Source: a virus
Direction: 5' to 3' (one strand)
IMG/VR virus record: IMGVR_UViG_3300006802_000527
Coordinates: 1-24,722 of that record
Length of the DNA stretch: 24,722 nucleotides
Shown here: piece by piece, positions 29 through 9,472 of the stretch
Layout of the letters: every line of letters begins with the position of its first letter
Numbering within the stretch: position 1 is the first letter of the stretch
The notes under the pieces: model-generated
What the model was told of the DNA's origin: nothing
The model's database searches: none
The model's input: the letters and a program-made list of their open reading frames with translations, nothing else
Made by a program: the position numbers and the translations under genes

Positions 29-247
29 ATGAAGTATACGAAAGCAGTTAATATCTGGGACCCGACCATTGTCCAAGCCTTAGAGCAAGGCAATTTAAAG
101 CTTCAGTGCGGCCAGTGGGTAAGGCTGGGCGACAACCCAAACCTTTCTCGGTTTGCTTACATCAAGCCCAATGGACACATCCGGGCATACCATTACCCAA
201 AGGCAGTGAGTCAGTTCCTGTCTAATCACTCAAAGAAAAAGGCTTGA
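29..247 (+). CDS. Hypothetical 72-aa protein
   Basis: I do not recognise this protein. It is 72 residues long, soluble, mildly basic, and rich in aromatic residues (Trp at about residues 10 and 30, several Tyr), with a lysine-rich C-terminus. The ATG is preceded by a GAGGA ribosome-binding site about six bases upstream, which supports this start. Its TGA stop lies inside the -35 hexamer of the next promoter, so it belongs to the transcription unit upstream of the window. Nothing in the sequence shows a function; it sits just ahead of the replication block. Confidence 0.6.
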   Translation: MKYTKAVNIWDPTIVQALEQGNLKLQCGQWVRLGDNPNLSRFAYIKPNGHIRAYHYPKAVSQFLSNHSKKKA

Positions 248-272
248 CACGCCCGTTAACCTCCTGTATAAT
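244..272 (+). promoter_or_regulatory. Perfect sigma-70 consensus promoter (P1)
   Basis: TTGACA (244-249) and TATAAT (267-272) are separated by exactly 17 bp, a full match to the sigma-70 consensus. Transcription should begin near 279-280, about 30 bases before the zinc-ribbon gene, and would drive the primase-helicase and polymerase. The stop codon of the upstream gene (245-247) lies within the -35 box. This implies use of the host RNA polymerase. Confidence 0.9.
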
Positions 273-307
273 AGTTTTTGTGGACTTACAACTTACAGGA
301 GGTTAAC
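255..307 (+). repeat. Perfect 14-bp inverted repeat spanning promoter and RBS
   Basis: GTTAACCTCCTGTA at 255-268 is the exact reverse complement of TACAGGAGGTTAAC at 294-307, with a 25-base loop. The left arm lies in the promoter spacer and the first two bases of the -10 box, upstream of the expected transcription start. The right arm contains the AGGAGG ribosome-binding site (297-302) of the gene starting at 308. In RNA read through from the left, the arms can pair and hide that site; RNA started at P1 lacks the left arm. It could instead be a protein-binding operator. A tandem ACTTACA repeat (284-297) lies between and in the arms. Confidence 0.85.
297..302 (+). promoter_or_regulatory. Ribosome-binding site AGGAGG fixing an ATT start
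   Basis: AGGAGG is five bases upstream of ATT at 308. No ATG, GTG or TTG in this frame has comparable spacing. The only upstream candidate, TTG at 278, lies at or before the expected transcription start of P1. Confidence 0.8.
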
Positions 308-499
308 ATTAGGTGTCACATATGTAATGTTGAACTGGATACAAATGAAATTCAGTTGGACCCAAGAGATGGTAAATACCTTCCATGTCCTACTTGTCAG
401 TTTGTAATTGAAGAAGCAGTAAACGAATCTGAAGAGGACAGCTCTTGGTTGGATGAACTCAAGGAGAGCTTAGATGACTTCCTCGGTGGCGATAGCTGA
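308..499 (+). CDS. Small zinc-ribbon protein (ATT start)
   Basis: This is a 63-aa acidic protein with Cys3-x2-Cys6 and Cys27-x2-Cys30, a pattern typical of a structural zinc ribbon, followed by an acidic tail. Its role is unknown. Its position between a strong promoter and the primase suggests a small regulator or a replication accessory protein; this is inference. The start is taken as ATT at 308, because AGGAGG lies five bases before it and both cysteine pairs follow it. A TTG at 278 would add ten residues but lies at the transcription start. The gene overlaps the next one by 26 bases, so the two are likely coupled. The ribosome-binding site lies in the inverted repeat at 255-307. Confidence 0.8.
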   Translation: MRCHICNVELDTNEIQLDPRDGKYLPCPTCQFVIEEAVNESEEDSSWLDELKESLDDFLGGDS

Positions 500-2075
500 A
501 CATCAACCATGTCCAATGTGTAAATCTTCAGATGCATACACATTGTATTCTGATGGACATGGTTATTGTTTTAGTTGTCAAGGTTTTAAAAAGAAGGACA
601 TAGAACCTATGAATGAAACAGTAGTGCTTAACAGACCACGCCCAAAGATTAATTTACCTGCTATGCCAGAGACCTTCTCTGCTCTGGAAGACAGGGGCAT
701 CAACCAAAAGACTGCAGAGAAGTATAAAGTTTCTTACAATGAGAATGGACCCTTTGTTCACCACTACCCGTACACAAGGAAAGGTGAGTACGTTGCTTCC
801 AAGAAGCGTAAGCGTGATACAAAAGGGTTCGCATGGGCCGGAGACACGGGGAACTTAGACCTGTTTGGTCAGGGTACCTTTCCTGCTGGGTGCGCCCCCG
901 CCATCACAATTGTTGAGGGTGAGTGTGATGCACTAGCAGCCTACCAAATGAACGGTGGGTTCCCCGTTGTCTCTGTGCAAAGTGCCTCTACAGCGGAGAG
1001 GGATGTTCGGACTAACTTCGAGTATCTCTCTTCGTTTGAGGAGATCGTTATCTGCTTTGATGCAGACGAGGCAGGATCTGAGGCAGCTATCAAGGTTGCC
1101 AATGCCCTGCCAATCGGCAAGGTACGTATTCTTTCCCTGTCTGAGCACAAGGACGCCAACGACTATCTGCAGTACGGCAAGGGGAAAAAGTTCAAGCAGG
1201 AGTGGTACAACGCTGCCAAGTACACACCTGCTACCCTCAAGACTGGTAAGCAACTCTGGGATGAGATCATCAATGTCCCTGATTATGAGACAGTCAGCTA
1301 TCCTTTTGAGGGCATAGACAAGATGACCTACGGTGTCCGGCTGTCTGAGCTTGTCATTGTCAATGCAGGTCACAAGGTAGGGAAGTCCACCTTTCTTGGT
1401 GAGATAACCCACCACATCCTGAATAACACAGATGCCGGTATTGGTCTCATGCGACTAGAGGAAAGCAACAGGGACTCAGCTCTCAACCTCATGTCTATCG
1501 AGGCAAACAAACGACTACACCTGCCTGATGTGTGGGAACAGTGTACAACGGAGGAGATCCGTGAGTACTATGACAAGACAATGAACACAGACAGGATCAT
1601 CATCTGGGATCACTTTGGATCTAACTCAATTGAGGCTGTCCTCAACCAGATCAGGAACATGGCAGCACTGGGATGTAAGTACATCATCCTTGATCACATC
1701 TCTATCATTGTCTCTGATCAGTCAGGGGACGAACGGAAACAGCTAGATGAATTAGCAACTAAGGTGAAGTCTCTTTGCATGGAGATCAATGTCTGTGTCC
1801 TTGCTGTTGTCCACCAAAACAGAGAGGGCAAGATCCGGGGCTCTGCAGGCATTGAGCAGTTAGCTAACATTGTGATCCGACTAGAACGTGACAAGGAACA
1901 TACAAATGACTTTGTACGCAACAGCACCAAGGTTGTTATCTCAGACAACAGGTTCTGTGGTGTAACAGGTCTTGCTTGCTACTTGTACTTTGATCAAGAG
2001 ACTGGTAGGATGCTTGAATACACGGAAGAGCAATTCCTTGAGTCTGCTGCTTCGGGAACCGTAGAAGGATGGTGA
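474..2075 (+). CDS. T7 gp4-like primase-helicase
   Basis: This bifunctional replication protein of 533 aa unwinds the fork and makes RNA primers. An N-terminal zinc motif is formed by Cys13, Cys16, Cys32 and Cys35. A TOPRIM primase core follows, with the VEGECDA glutamate motif near residue 147 and FDADEAG near residue 194. The C-terminal RecA-like helicase has Walker A (AGHKVGKST, about residue 299), Walker B (YIILDH) and the VVHQN motif with the downstream RGSAGIEQLA segment. AAGGAG seven bases before the ATG supports the start, which lies inside the end of the zinc-ribbon gene. T7 gp4 is 566 aa, so this protein looks full length. It is followed directly by the polymerase, the expected partner. 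Confidence 0.96.
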   Translation: MTSSVAIAEHQPCPMCKSSDAYTLYSDGHGYCFSCQGFKKKDIEPMNETVVLNRPRPKINLPAMPETFSALEDRGINQKTAEKYKVSYNENGPFVHHYPYTRKGEYVASKKRKRDTKGFAWAGDTGNLDLFGQGTFPAGCAPAITIVEGECDALAAYQMNGGFPVVSVQSASTAERDVRTNFEYLSSFEEIVICFDADEAGSEAAIKVANALPIGKVRILSLSEHKDANDYLQYGKGKKFKQEWYNAAKYTPATLKTGKQLWDEIINVPDYETVSYPFEGIDKMTYGVRLSELVIVNAGHKVGKSTFLGEITHHILNNTDAGIGLMRLEESNRDSALNLMSIEANKRLHLPDVWEQCTTEEIREYYDKTMNTDRIIIWDHFGSNSIEAVLNQIRNMAALGCKYIILDHISIIVSDQSGDERKQLDELATKVKSLCMEINVCVLAVVHQNREGKIRGSAGIEQLANIVIRLERDKEHTNDFVRNSTKVVISDNRFCGVTGLACYLYFDQETGRMLEYTEEQFLESAASGTVEGW

Positions 2076-2084
2076 ATTTGAAGG

Positions 2085-3902
2085 ATGTACTTATATGACA
2101 GACAACTCAGAAACTACTGGGCACTCGACATTGAAACCGATGCTCTTGACGCAAGTCGTATCCACGTCTGCTGTGTTGAAAACCTCTCCACCGGAGATAA
2201 AAGAACGATCACGACTGCAGAAGAGTTTAGACTTTTTAAACAATCTGGGTTTGTGTATGTTACTCATAATGGCCTTAGCTTTGATATCCCTGTGCTTAAT
2301 CGTCTATGGGATACTAAAATTAGGTTATCAAGGGTTGTCGACACTCTGGTCCTTTCTTACCTCTATAACCCGAATCTTCCACGACCCGCTGGTTATACAG
2401 GAGGGAAAGGTCCTCATTCACTCGACTGCTGGGGATACCGACTCGGAGACTACAAAATAGGTTTCCATGATTGGTCTAAACTGACAGACGAGATGATTGA
2501 GTATTGTCAACAAGATGTATCTATAACATGCGAGCTATACAGACGCCTATCACAAAAGCTTGTTGACCTTGGTTACTCAGAAGAGAGTGCCTTACTTGAG
2601 CACAAGTTCAGGACTGTCATCAATGATCAGGAGAGAAATGGTTTTAAGTTCAACCGGACAAGAGCCAACTTCCTCTACCTCAGACTTCGGAGTATGGAGT
2701 ATGAAACTCAGGCCACCATCAGAAGCTTCTTCAAGCCGAAGGAGGTTCTCAAAGGAGAATACGCCTACAGAGAAAAAGCTAATGGAGAACCCTTTGCTTC
2801 GTATCTACGGCACTGTGAAGAAAGTCCCAAGATCGTCTTTAACAAAGACAAAACCAGATACAGGACCTTCACTCTCCAAGAGTTTAACATTGGAAGTCCC
2901 GTTCAAAGACTTGAACGACTGCTCGATCTTGGATGGAAACCTAAAAAGAAAACCAAGTCAGGAAAAAACTGGGCAGTTGATGAAGAGTCCGTGGTGGAGT
3001 TTGCCACATCTTCGGGTAACAAATATGTAGGGTTGATTGCTGATTGGCTTGTCTACAATGGCAGGGCCAACATGATCAGGACTTGGCTCAACGAACTACA
3101 GGAGGATAGTTGTATTCATGGCAGCGTCTCATCGTGCGGTGCAGGGAGCAGGAGATGTACACATAGCGCACCTAACACTGCAAACATACCATCGGTTTAC
3201 GCAAGGTTTGGTGTCGAATCACGAAGTCTATGGGTTGCCAGACCTGAGAGAGTTCTGGTTGGAGCAGATGCTAGTGGACTTGAAGGGAGGGTCTTTATAC
3301 ATTATCTGGGTTCGGAGGAAGCCAAGACCTTCATGCTCGGAGACCCCCACACTGAAAACGCAAACGCTATTAGTCGAGCAGTTGGTTTTGAGGTTTCAAG
3401 ATCGTCAACTAAGAACCTTTTCTATGCAAGACTTTACGGAGCTTCCGATAAAAAGCTTGGGTCAATGCTGGGAGGCAACAGATCCTTGGGTGAAAAAGTT
3501 AGGTCTGCAATTGACACTAACATTCCCGGGTTTGAGAGTCTCGTCCAAAGCATCGGACAAGAGTACGAAAAAAATGGTGGAAGACTTCAGACGGTCGACG
3601 GAGGTTTTGTCTCCTGCCCAAGTCCTCACGCTGCCCTAAACTACAAGTTCCAGAGTTGTGGAGCACTCATCATGAAACAAGCTGCTATCCTGTTGTCTGA
3701 CAGGATACGAAAAGAAGGGCTTGACTGTCTAAAAGTTGGTGATATACACGACGAGTGGCAGTTTGATGTTGCTCCTACCCACGCAGAAAGAGTAGGAGAT
3801 TTAGCATGTAGAGCAATGACACAAGCAGGTAAGGTGTTGAACCTTAACATTAAAATTGAAGGTGAATACAAGATCGGAAGAAATTGGGCAGAAACCCATT
3901 GA
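2085..3902 (+). CDS. T7-like family A DNA polymerase
   Basis: This is the replicative DNA polymerase (605 aa; T7 gp5 is 704 aa, so it is a compact member). The 3'-5' exonuclease domain shows DIET at residues 15-18, a THNGLSFD segment, and YCQQD. The polymerase domain shows motif A (GADASGLEGRV, about residue 391), motif B (RSSTKNLFYARLYGA, about 438) and motif C (DIHDEW, about 553). The ATG at 2085 is the only usual start after an in-frame TGA at 2079. It has no well-spaced ribosome-binding site, so translation probably depends on coupling to the primase-helicase, which ends nine bases before. The TGA stop is embedded in the -35 box of the next promoter. Confidence 0.96.
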   Translation: MYLYDRQLRNYWALDIETDALDASRIHVCCVENLSTGDKRTITTAEEFRLFKQSGFVYVTHNGLSFDIPVLNRLWDTKIRLSRVVDTLVLSYLYNPNLPRPAGYTGGKGPHSLDCWGYRLGDYKIGFHDWSKLTDEMIEYCQQDVSITCELYRRLSQKLVDLGYSEESALLEHKFRTVINDQERNGFKFNRTRANFLYLRLRSMEYETQATIRSFFKPKEVLKGEYAYREKANGEPFASYLRHCEESPKIVFNKDKTRYRTFTLQEFNIGSPVQRLERLLDLGWKPKKKTKSGKNWAVDEESVVEFATSSGNKYVGLIADWLVYNGRANMIRTWLNELQEDSCIHGSVSSCGAGSRRCTHSAPNTANIPSVYARFGVESRSLWVARPERVLVGADASGLEGRVFIHYLGSEEAKTFMLGDPHTENANAISRAVGFEVSRSSTKNLFYARLYGASDKKLGSMLGGNRSLGEKVRSAIDTNIPGFESLVQSIGQEYEKNGGRLQTVDGGFVSCPSPHAALNYKFQSCGALIMKQAAILLSDRIRKEGLDCLKVGDIHDEWQFDVAPTHAERVGDLACRAMTQAGKVLNLNIKIEGEYKIGRNWAETH

Positions 3903-3927
3903 CATTGTTTTGATCGTGTGTTATAAT
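3899..3927 (+). promoter_or_regulatory. Perfect sigma-70 consensus promoter (P2)
   Basis: TTGACA (3899-3904) and TATAAT (3922-3927) are separated by exactly 17 bp. The polymerase stop codon TGA (3900-3902) lies inside the -35 hexamer, the same arrangement as P1. The promoter lies in the 60-base gap before the single-stranded DNA-binding protein gene and should give that gene and its followers extra transcription. No inverted repeat like that of P1 is visible here. Confidence 0.9.
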
Positions 3928-3962: not shown

Positions 3963-4439
3963 ATGATCCTCAAAGATGTAACAGTAAATTGGTGCAAGCT
4001 TCTTGGAGCACCTCGGTTGAACTACAATGAAGACGGTCACGAATGGACGGTTGATATTGTTGTAGACAAAGACCAACAAAAAATGCTCATGAAAAACAAT
4101 GTAGGAGACTACTTCAAGACCAACGATAATGGAGAGACATTCTTCAAGTATCGTCGGAACTCAGAGAAGCCTGATGGGTCTCCTGCAGCACCAGTAGATA
4201 TCTATGATGAGTACGGAGATGCTTGGCCCCAAGACCGCCTGATTGGCAATGGTTCTAAGGCGGAAGTAAAATTACTCATGGTAGAGATGAAACGAGGCAA
4301 AAATCGTGGTAAGTTCAAGCCAATTGTTCTTGCCCTGAAGATCACTGACCACGTTTCATATAGCGATGGTGAAGGGTTTAGTTTCAAAGCTAAGACCGGA
4401 GCCATTCCACAAGAAGCGCAAGGAGATAGTGACTGGTGA
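3963..4439 (+). CDS. T7 gp2.5-like single-stranded DNA-binding protein
   Basis: This 158-aa protein resembles the phage single-stranded DNA-binding proteins that coat DNA at the fork and contact polymerase and primase-helicase. It has alternating beta-strand segments with basic and aromatic residues, as expected of an OB fold. It ends in a short acidic tail with a terminal aromatic residue (GDSDW), the hallmark of T7 gp2.5 and bacterial SSB tails. It follows the polymerase and has its own strong promoter, as would suit a protein needed in large amounts. GGAG lies about ten bases before the ATG. An out-of-frame ATG at 3956 is rejected. The sequence is too divergent to place by motif alone. Confidence 0.82.
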   Translation: MILKDVTVNWCKLLGAPRLNYNEDGHEWTVDIVVDKDQQKMLMKNNVGDYFKTNDNGETFFKYRRNSEKPDGSPAAPVDIYDEYGDAWPQDRLIGNGSKAEVKLLMVEMKRGKNRGKFKPIVLALKITDHVSYSDGEGFSFKAKTGAIPQEAQGDSDW

Positions 4440-9446: not shown

Positions 9447-9472
9447 TAGCCCCCGGAGAAATCTGGGGGTTA
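9447..9472 (+). terminator. Hairpin terminator between convergent arms
   Basis: CCCCC at 9450-9454 pairs with GGGGG at 9465-9469, with further pairs inside and outside, giving an 11-bp stem (including two G-U) closed by a GAAA tetraloop (9458-9461). On the plus strand it is followed by a T-rich stretch (TTAATCTTCTTTG), as expected of a rho-independent terminator. On the minus strand the tail is not T-rich, so termination there is less certain. The stop codon of the converging gene (9470-9472) forms part of the stem. Confidence 0.85.

Follow-up and report, generated by a model that had tools for sequence, protein, structure and literature searches.

The window analysed here, i.e. the whole stretch of viral DNA under study (24.7 kb, IMG/VR record IMGVR_UViG_3300006802_000527), carries on its + strand an upstream ORF of 72 aa (positions 29..247) with a weak match to phrog_21585, a zinc-ribbon-like gene of 63 aa with an ATT start (308..499, motif RCxxC...CPxC) and a primase-helicase gene (474..2075, phrog_239). 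The last two overlap and belong to the same operon, and the primase-helicase gene has its own Shine-Dalgarno (SD) sequence, AGGAGA, before its ATG at 474. The zinc-ribbon gene is preceded by P1, a consensus sigma-70-type promoter (244..272, + strand) consisting of TTGACA (244-249), a 17-bp spacer and TATAAT (267-272), a 12/12 match, and the stop codon of the upstream ORF (245-247) lies inside its -35 box. Primase and DNA polymerase genes are located downstream of P1, which, judging from the sequence, is expected to be active and to start transcription at about position 280. In a terminator scan, the + strand was free of terminator-like sites as far as position 9447, and the transcript of the upstream ORF is the expected source of RNA reading through into the operon. 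A second 12/12 sigma-70 promoter, P2, is present at 3899-3927, 5' of the gene at 3963.

The zinc-ribbon product is small and contains two CxxC pairs; in the Pfam analysis it reached the cut-off of no family. Syntenic homologues occur in other podoviruses; those of Siovirus phages (MRCYICN..., ATG start), L411, L009, L013 and L014 are encoded immediately 5' of the primase or close to it. The starts of the homologues (ATG in Siovirus, TTG in L411 and L009, ATC in L013 and L014) align with the residue encoded by ATT 308, which makes both the gene and its unusual start codon credible. Weak start codons (ATT, ATC, TTG) thus recur at the same residue, i.e. at position 308 of the window, 661 of L013, 2189 of L014, 84 of L009 and 2686 of L411. 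ATT is also the aligned start of another gene located behind a strong promoter in contigs L010-L012, L019 and L038.

A preliminary description of this DNA had reported a perfect inverted repeat of 14 bp, whose arms lie in the promoter and over the AGGAGG site, and we confirmed it at 255-268/294-307. The 5' arm, GTTAACCTCCTGTA (255..268, + strand), is an anti-SD sequence, of which 12 bases form the 3' end of the 17-bp spacer and the remaining two begin the TATAAT box. It is fully complementary to the 3' arm, TACAGGAGGTTAAC (294..307, + strand), which spans the SD sequence AGGAGG (297-302), situated five bases 5' of ATT 308. The 25-nt gap (269..293, + strand), which would form the loop of a hairpin in read-through RNA, contains what remains of the -10 box, together with the position at which transcription is expected to start.

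With gaps of up to 100 allowed, no perfect inverted repeat in the 24.7 kb window exceeds it in length. An arm of at least 14 was seen once in 331 Markov-shuffled windows, a figure in which the position of the repeat is not yet counted, and chance is therefore a poor explanation. The candidate role of an intrinsic terminator or attenuator was rejected, as neither position 307 on the + strand nor position 255 on the - strand is followed by a T run, and the site is absent from the terminator scan.

Folding of the RNA from 240 to 340 gave a predicted energy of -32.3 kcal/mol (z -3.7). The predicted fold contains an additional outer helix, missing from the preliminary description, between TGACAC (245..250, + strand, inside the -35 box) and GTGTCA (313..318, + strand, codons 2-4 of the zinc-ribbon gene). 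No comparable structure was predicted for the RNA from 279 to 360 (z -0.5). According to equilibrium predictions, the SD sequence is practically always paired in upstream-initiated RNAs, with an opening cost of 12-17 kcal/mol, and costs about 5 kcal/mol to open in RNA starting at 280. When 32 candidate starts in the window were compared by equilibrium prediction with equal context length for all of them, this SD sequence was by far the most buried (14.0 kcal/mol versus at most 6.0 kcal/mol for the other 31).

Based on these observations, we consider it reasonably probable that the repeat is an RNA device tying translation to promoter choice. In read-through RNA from the upstream genes both arms would be present and would form the 14-bp stem together with the 6-bp outer helix. 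The stem would bury AGGAGG, and the zinc-ribbon cistron, the first of the primase operon, would consequently be hardly translated. RNA initiated at P1 would have its 5' end near 280, past the 5' arm, and for this reason its AGGAGG should stay usable. We infer that read-through RNA exists and adopts this fold in the cell; an effect on timing, and with it a dependence on the stage of infection, may follow. Ribosomes terminating at 245-247 could overlay part of the 5' arm and so weaken the fold.

A duplex of this kind might instead be an RNase III processing site, at which read-through RNA is cut between the upstream genes and the replication operon, the effect on translation being secondary. The 14-bp stem and the 6-bp outer helix, joined through an internal loop, amount to a duplex of about 20 bp, and the same RNA has a second long hairpin at 490-580, both of which agree with such a role. 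However, processing does not predict the exact placement of one arm on the SD sequence or of the other within the promoter, and the repeat region had no Rfam match above the gathering score; we regard this explanation as very unlikely. The 490-580 hairpin is in itself a very stable predicted structure (-36.2 kcal/mol, z -6.2, arms 499-515/554-570), which extends from the end of the zinc-ribbon gene into the first part of the primase gene and has a stronger z value than the repeat studied here.

Silencing of read-through RNA is a mechanism of a known kind, represented by T4 e and I-TevI as well as by IS10 and IS200. The analogy with T4 gene e drawn in the preliminary description is apt and documented: in T4 genes e, soc, 49 and I-TevI, and likewise in segB and Aeh1 mobE, a hairpin in the upstream-initiated RNA hides the SD sequence (PMC3014915, PMC2988022). 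The 5' strand of these hairpins is encoded by promoter DNA, and the promoter-proximal RNA therefore escapes (PMC3014915, PMC2988022). As in T4 e and I-TevI, the predicted helix in the window includes the SD sequence of upstream-initiated RNA, and the 12/12 promoter lies over the 5' arm, which the proximal RNA, given its presumed start site, would lack. The T4 e/I-TevI type is associated with late promoters (TATAAATA, gp55) and late genes, whereas the window has a host-type sigma-70 consensus promoter, a zinc-ribbon/primase operon and an ATT start. Given the sigma-70 promoter and the primase and DNA polymerase genes, the device would work like the T4 type without being a late-gene case of the T4 kind.

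In IS10 and IS200, folded read-through RNA hides the transposase start, while RNA from the element's own promoter is translated. Davis 1985 is said to deal with the protection of IS10 from external promoters, and Beuzon 1999 reportedly with the structure of the IS200 mRNA. The window resembles these elements in combining a read-through RNA structure with a sigma-70-type promoter, but its gene belongs to a phage replication operon (zinc-ribbon/primase) and does not encode a transposase, and no insertion-sequence context was found. Both works, Davis 1985 for IS10 and Beuzon 1999 for IS200, are cited in PMC2965389.

Relatives of the primase and of the polymerase were gathered by several scans. 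The locus was found only in L001 (IMGVR_UViG_3300006810_005441), a near-identical contig which is identical to window positions 194-401; as it contains no change in the region, it offers no compensatory change for comparison. In a DNA-level search of a phage collection, the best among the matches listed were all in the ribonucleotide reductase gene. Of the relatives with upstream sequence, the nearest is L411, whose primase is about 63% identical. It has TTGACA-17-TATAAT (12/12) at the same place before the TTG-started homologue, its spacer, CGTCGTAATTTTTCAGC, is without the anti-SD sequence, and its SD sequence is weaker and opens at 2.3 kcal/mol. L337 and L415 also keep the consensus promoter and the gene and have no pairing, and strong sigma-70-type promoters without the arm precede the homologue in L431 and L416-L418. 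Among 46 strong promoter-SD units in the relatives, an arm of over 6 bases occurs only in the window unit (seen as L001). Strong promoters are also found after the DNA polymerase gene of relatives, none of them with an anti-SD arm. In L445, L446, L449, L455 and L466, a separate subgroup with distant zinc-ribbon homologues, another stem (TACCC/GGGTA) is predicted over their own SD/start region, and TTGACA and TGTCAA are predicted to pair outside it, on either side of the start codon.

Conservation of the pairing in relatives, which the preliminary description had proposed to examine, was thus not found, since L411 and L337/L415 keep promoter and gene and lack the pairing, a pattern that the preliminary description had named as speaking against its reading. 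A promoter and gene without pairing in L411 indicate that the device is dispensable for the family, in which it is not conserved. Because the SD sequence of L411 is weaker as well, the lack of pairing there does not refute a function in the window lineage. With the promoter widespread in the group and the arm absent from the relatives, the pairing is an addition in the window lineage. The T4 e hairpin itself is absent from some T4 relatives (PMC3014915).

The comparison also bears on the possibility that the repeat is a DNA operator, at which a repressor, be it the zinc-ribbon protein or a different one, binds both arms near the transcription start and blocks P1. The left arm does overlap the P1 spacer and the -10 box, and the dyad centre, at about 281, is near the expected start. 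However, relatives with the same zinc-ribbon protein do not have the repeat, and as this protein is widespread without it, the earlier suggestion that the zinc-ribbon protein uses the repeat as its operator is unsupported. No further copy of the arm was found in the record at up to 2 mismatches, and P2 (3899-3927) has neither the arm sequence nor the anti-SD/SD hairpin layout. Moreover, protein binding gives no reason for the coincidence of arm and SD sequence, and in the unrelated cases described below complementarity over the SD sequence is retained while the outer arm bases differ. We therefore consider an operator improbable.

The layout was also sought outside this group. A scan of viral contigs with the pattern CCTCCT..TATAAT..AGGAGG yielded 76 non-redundant sites, whose arms pair past the fixed bases more than shuffled partners do; none of 2000 shuffles matched the inward extension. 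Such evidence is conditioned on the motifs searched for, the seeds being fixed in this first viral search. In a second search promoter-SD units were picked regardless of the spacer (83 with an ORF), and arms of at least 9 over the SD sequence were present in two of the 83, versus 0.01 expected (13 bp in L259 and 9 bp in L280). Units with an anti-SD sequence in the spacer are rare but not due to chance.

A close parallel in arrangement is L075, from a 111-kb contig of an unrelated phage, where the same layout includes a perfect stem of 14 bp (GAAAAACCTCCTGT/ACAGGAGGTTTTTC, z -6.1). It precedes an endonuclease VII gene (PF02945, E 4.5e-16), which belongs to the family of T4 gene 49. In both loci the elements follow one another in the same order and at the same distances (CCTCCTGTATAAT, 22-24 nt, AGGAGG), the arms are perfect over 14 bp and the loops are similar, but L075 differs in phage, gene and outer arm sequence and has a poor -35 box and an ATG start. 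The likeness of the loops was reached in 3 of 5000 shuffles and was the best of the 76 non-redundant sites, which is suggestive and, after correction, weak.

In bacterial genomes, the strict pattern occurred in 48 stretches, often 5' of IS200-type (Y1_Tnp) and integrase-type transposases. When four ORFs suspected to encode transposases were scanned, Y1_Tnp (IS200-like) was identified in two of them and a Mu-transposase C-terminal domain in the other two, and further bacterial matches have N-terminal sequences in common with the scanned ORFs. Since other bacterial matches precede genes of unrelated kinds (VTC domain, deaminase), the pattern by itself is no proof of a device. Among the viral matches, L048, L079 and L094 were rejected as terminators, having a T run after the stem and no start codon, and in L115, which has a related primase, the motif lies inside the coding end of the primase gene and was attributed to chance. 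In a TTGTCC promoter family (L056, L076, L082), pairing is present in only some members. The promoter TTGACACACAAAGCCTCCTAATGCTATAAT and its close variants, with AGGAGGG downstream and an anti-SD sequence in the spacer, are conserved in nine contigs (L068, L071, L089, L118, L130, L133, L140, L147 and L157).

The repeat could also be a recent by-product without any selected role, left by a template switch in which the SD region was copied into the spacer. One such step can yield a perfect repeat, and the repeat is absent in all relatives, including L411, and known in two near-identical contigs only. Yet the 12/12 promoter with its exact 17-bp spacing was left intact, the layout is above expectation in the sample unselected for the spacer, and its independent recurrence before endonuclease VII and transposase genes is left unexplained; we judge an origin of this kind, devoid of function, to be unlikely. 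The recurrence speaks for silencing of read-through RNA, as the same layout stands before genes known to need such protection.

The case for this function thus consists of the repeat, the exact coincidence of its arms with promoter and SD sequence, the predicted fold and the recurrence elsewhere. The proposal made in the preliminary description, that the repeat silences read-through translation, gains from the folding, the comparison of 32 starts and the recurrence, and loses from the lack of conservation of the pairing in relatives. It is plausible and the best supported of the explanations, lineage-specific and unproven. More tentatively, sigma-70 promoters with an anti-SD spacer may constitute a general, repeatedly evolved cassette of phages and insertion sequences, from which only promoter-proximal RNA is translated, and the window and L075, with their shared loop sequence, might then carry a transferred module; we regard this as a doubtful, though conceivable, extension.

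If silencing of read-through RNA is indeed the role of the repeat, a mechanism known from T4 would extend to the replication operon of a marine podovirus with a host-type promoter. Its DNA signature, i.e. an anti-SD sequence between the -35 and -10 boxes with the SD sequence downstream, would then serve to find those genes of phages and mobile elements that are controlled in this way. The example would also illustrate how, where a strong terminator is lacking, a phage can insulate an operon at the level of translation.
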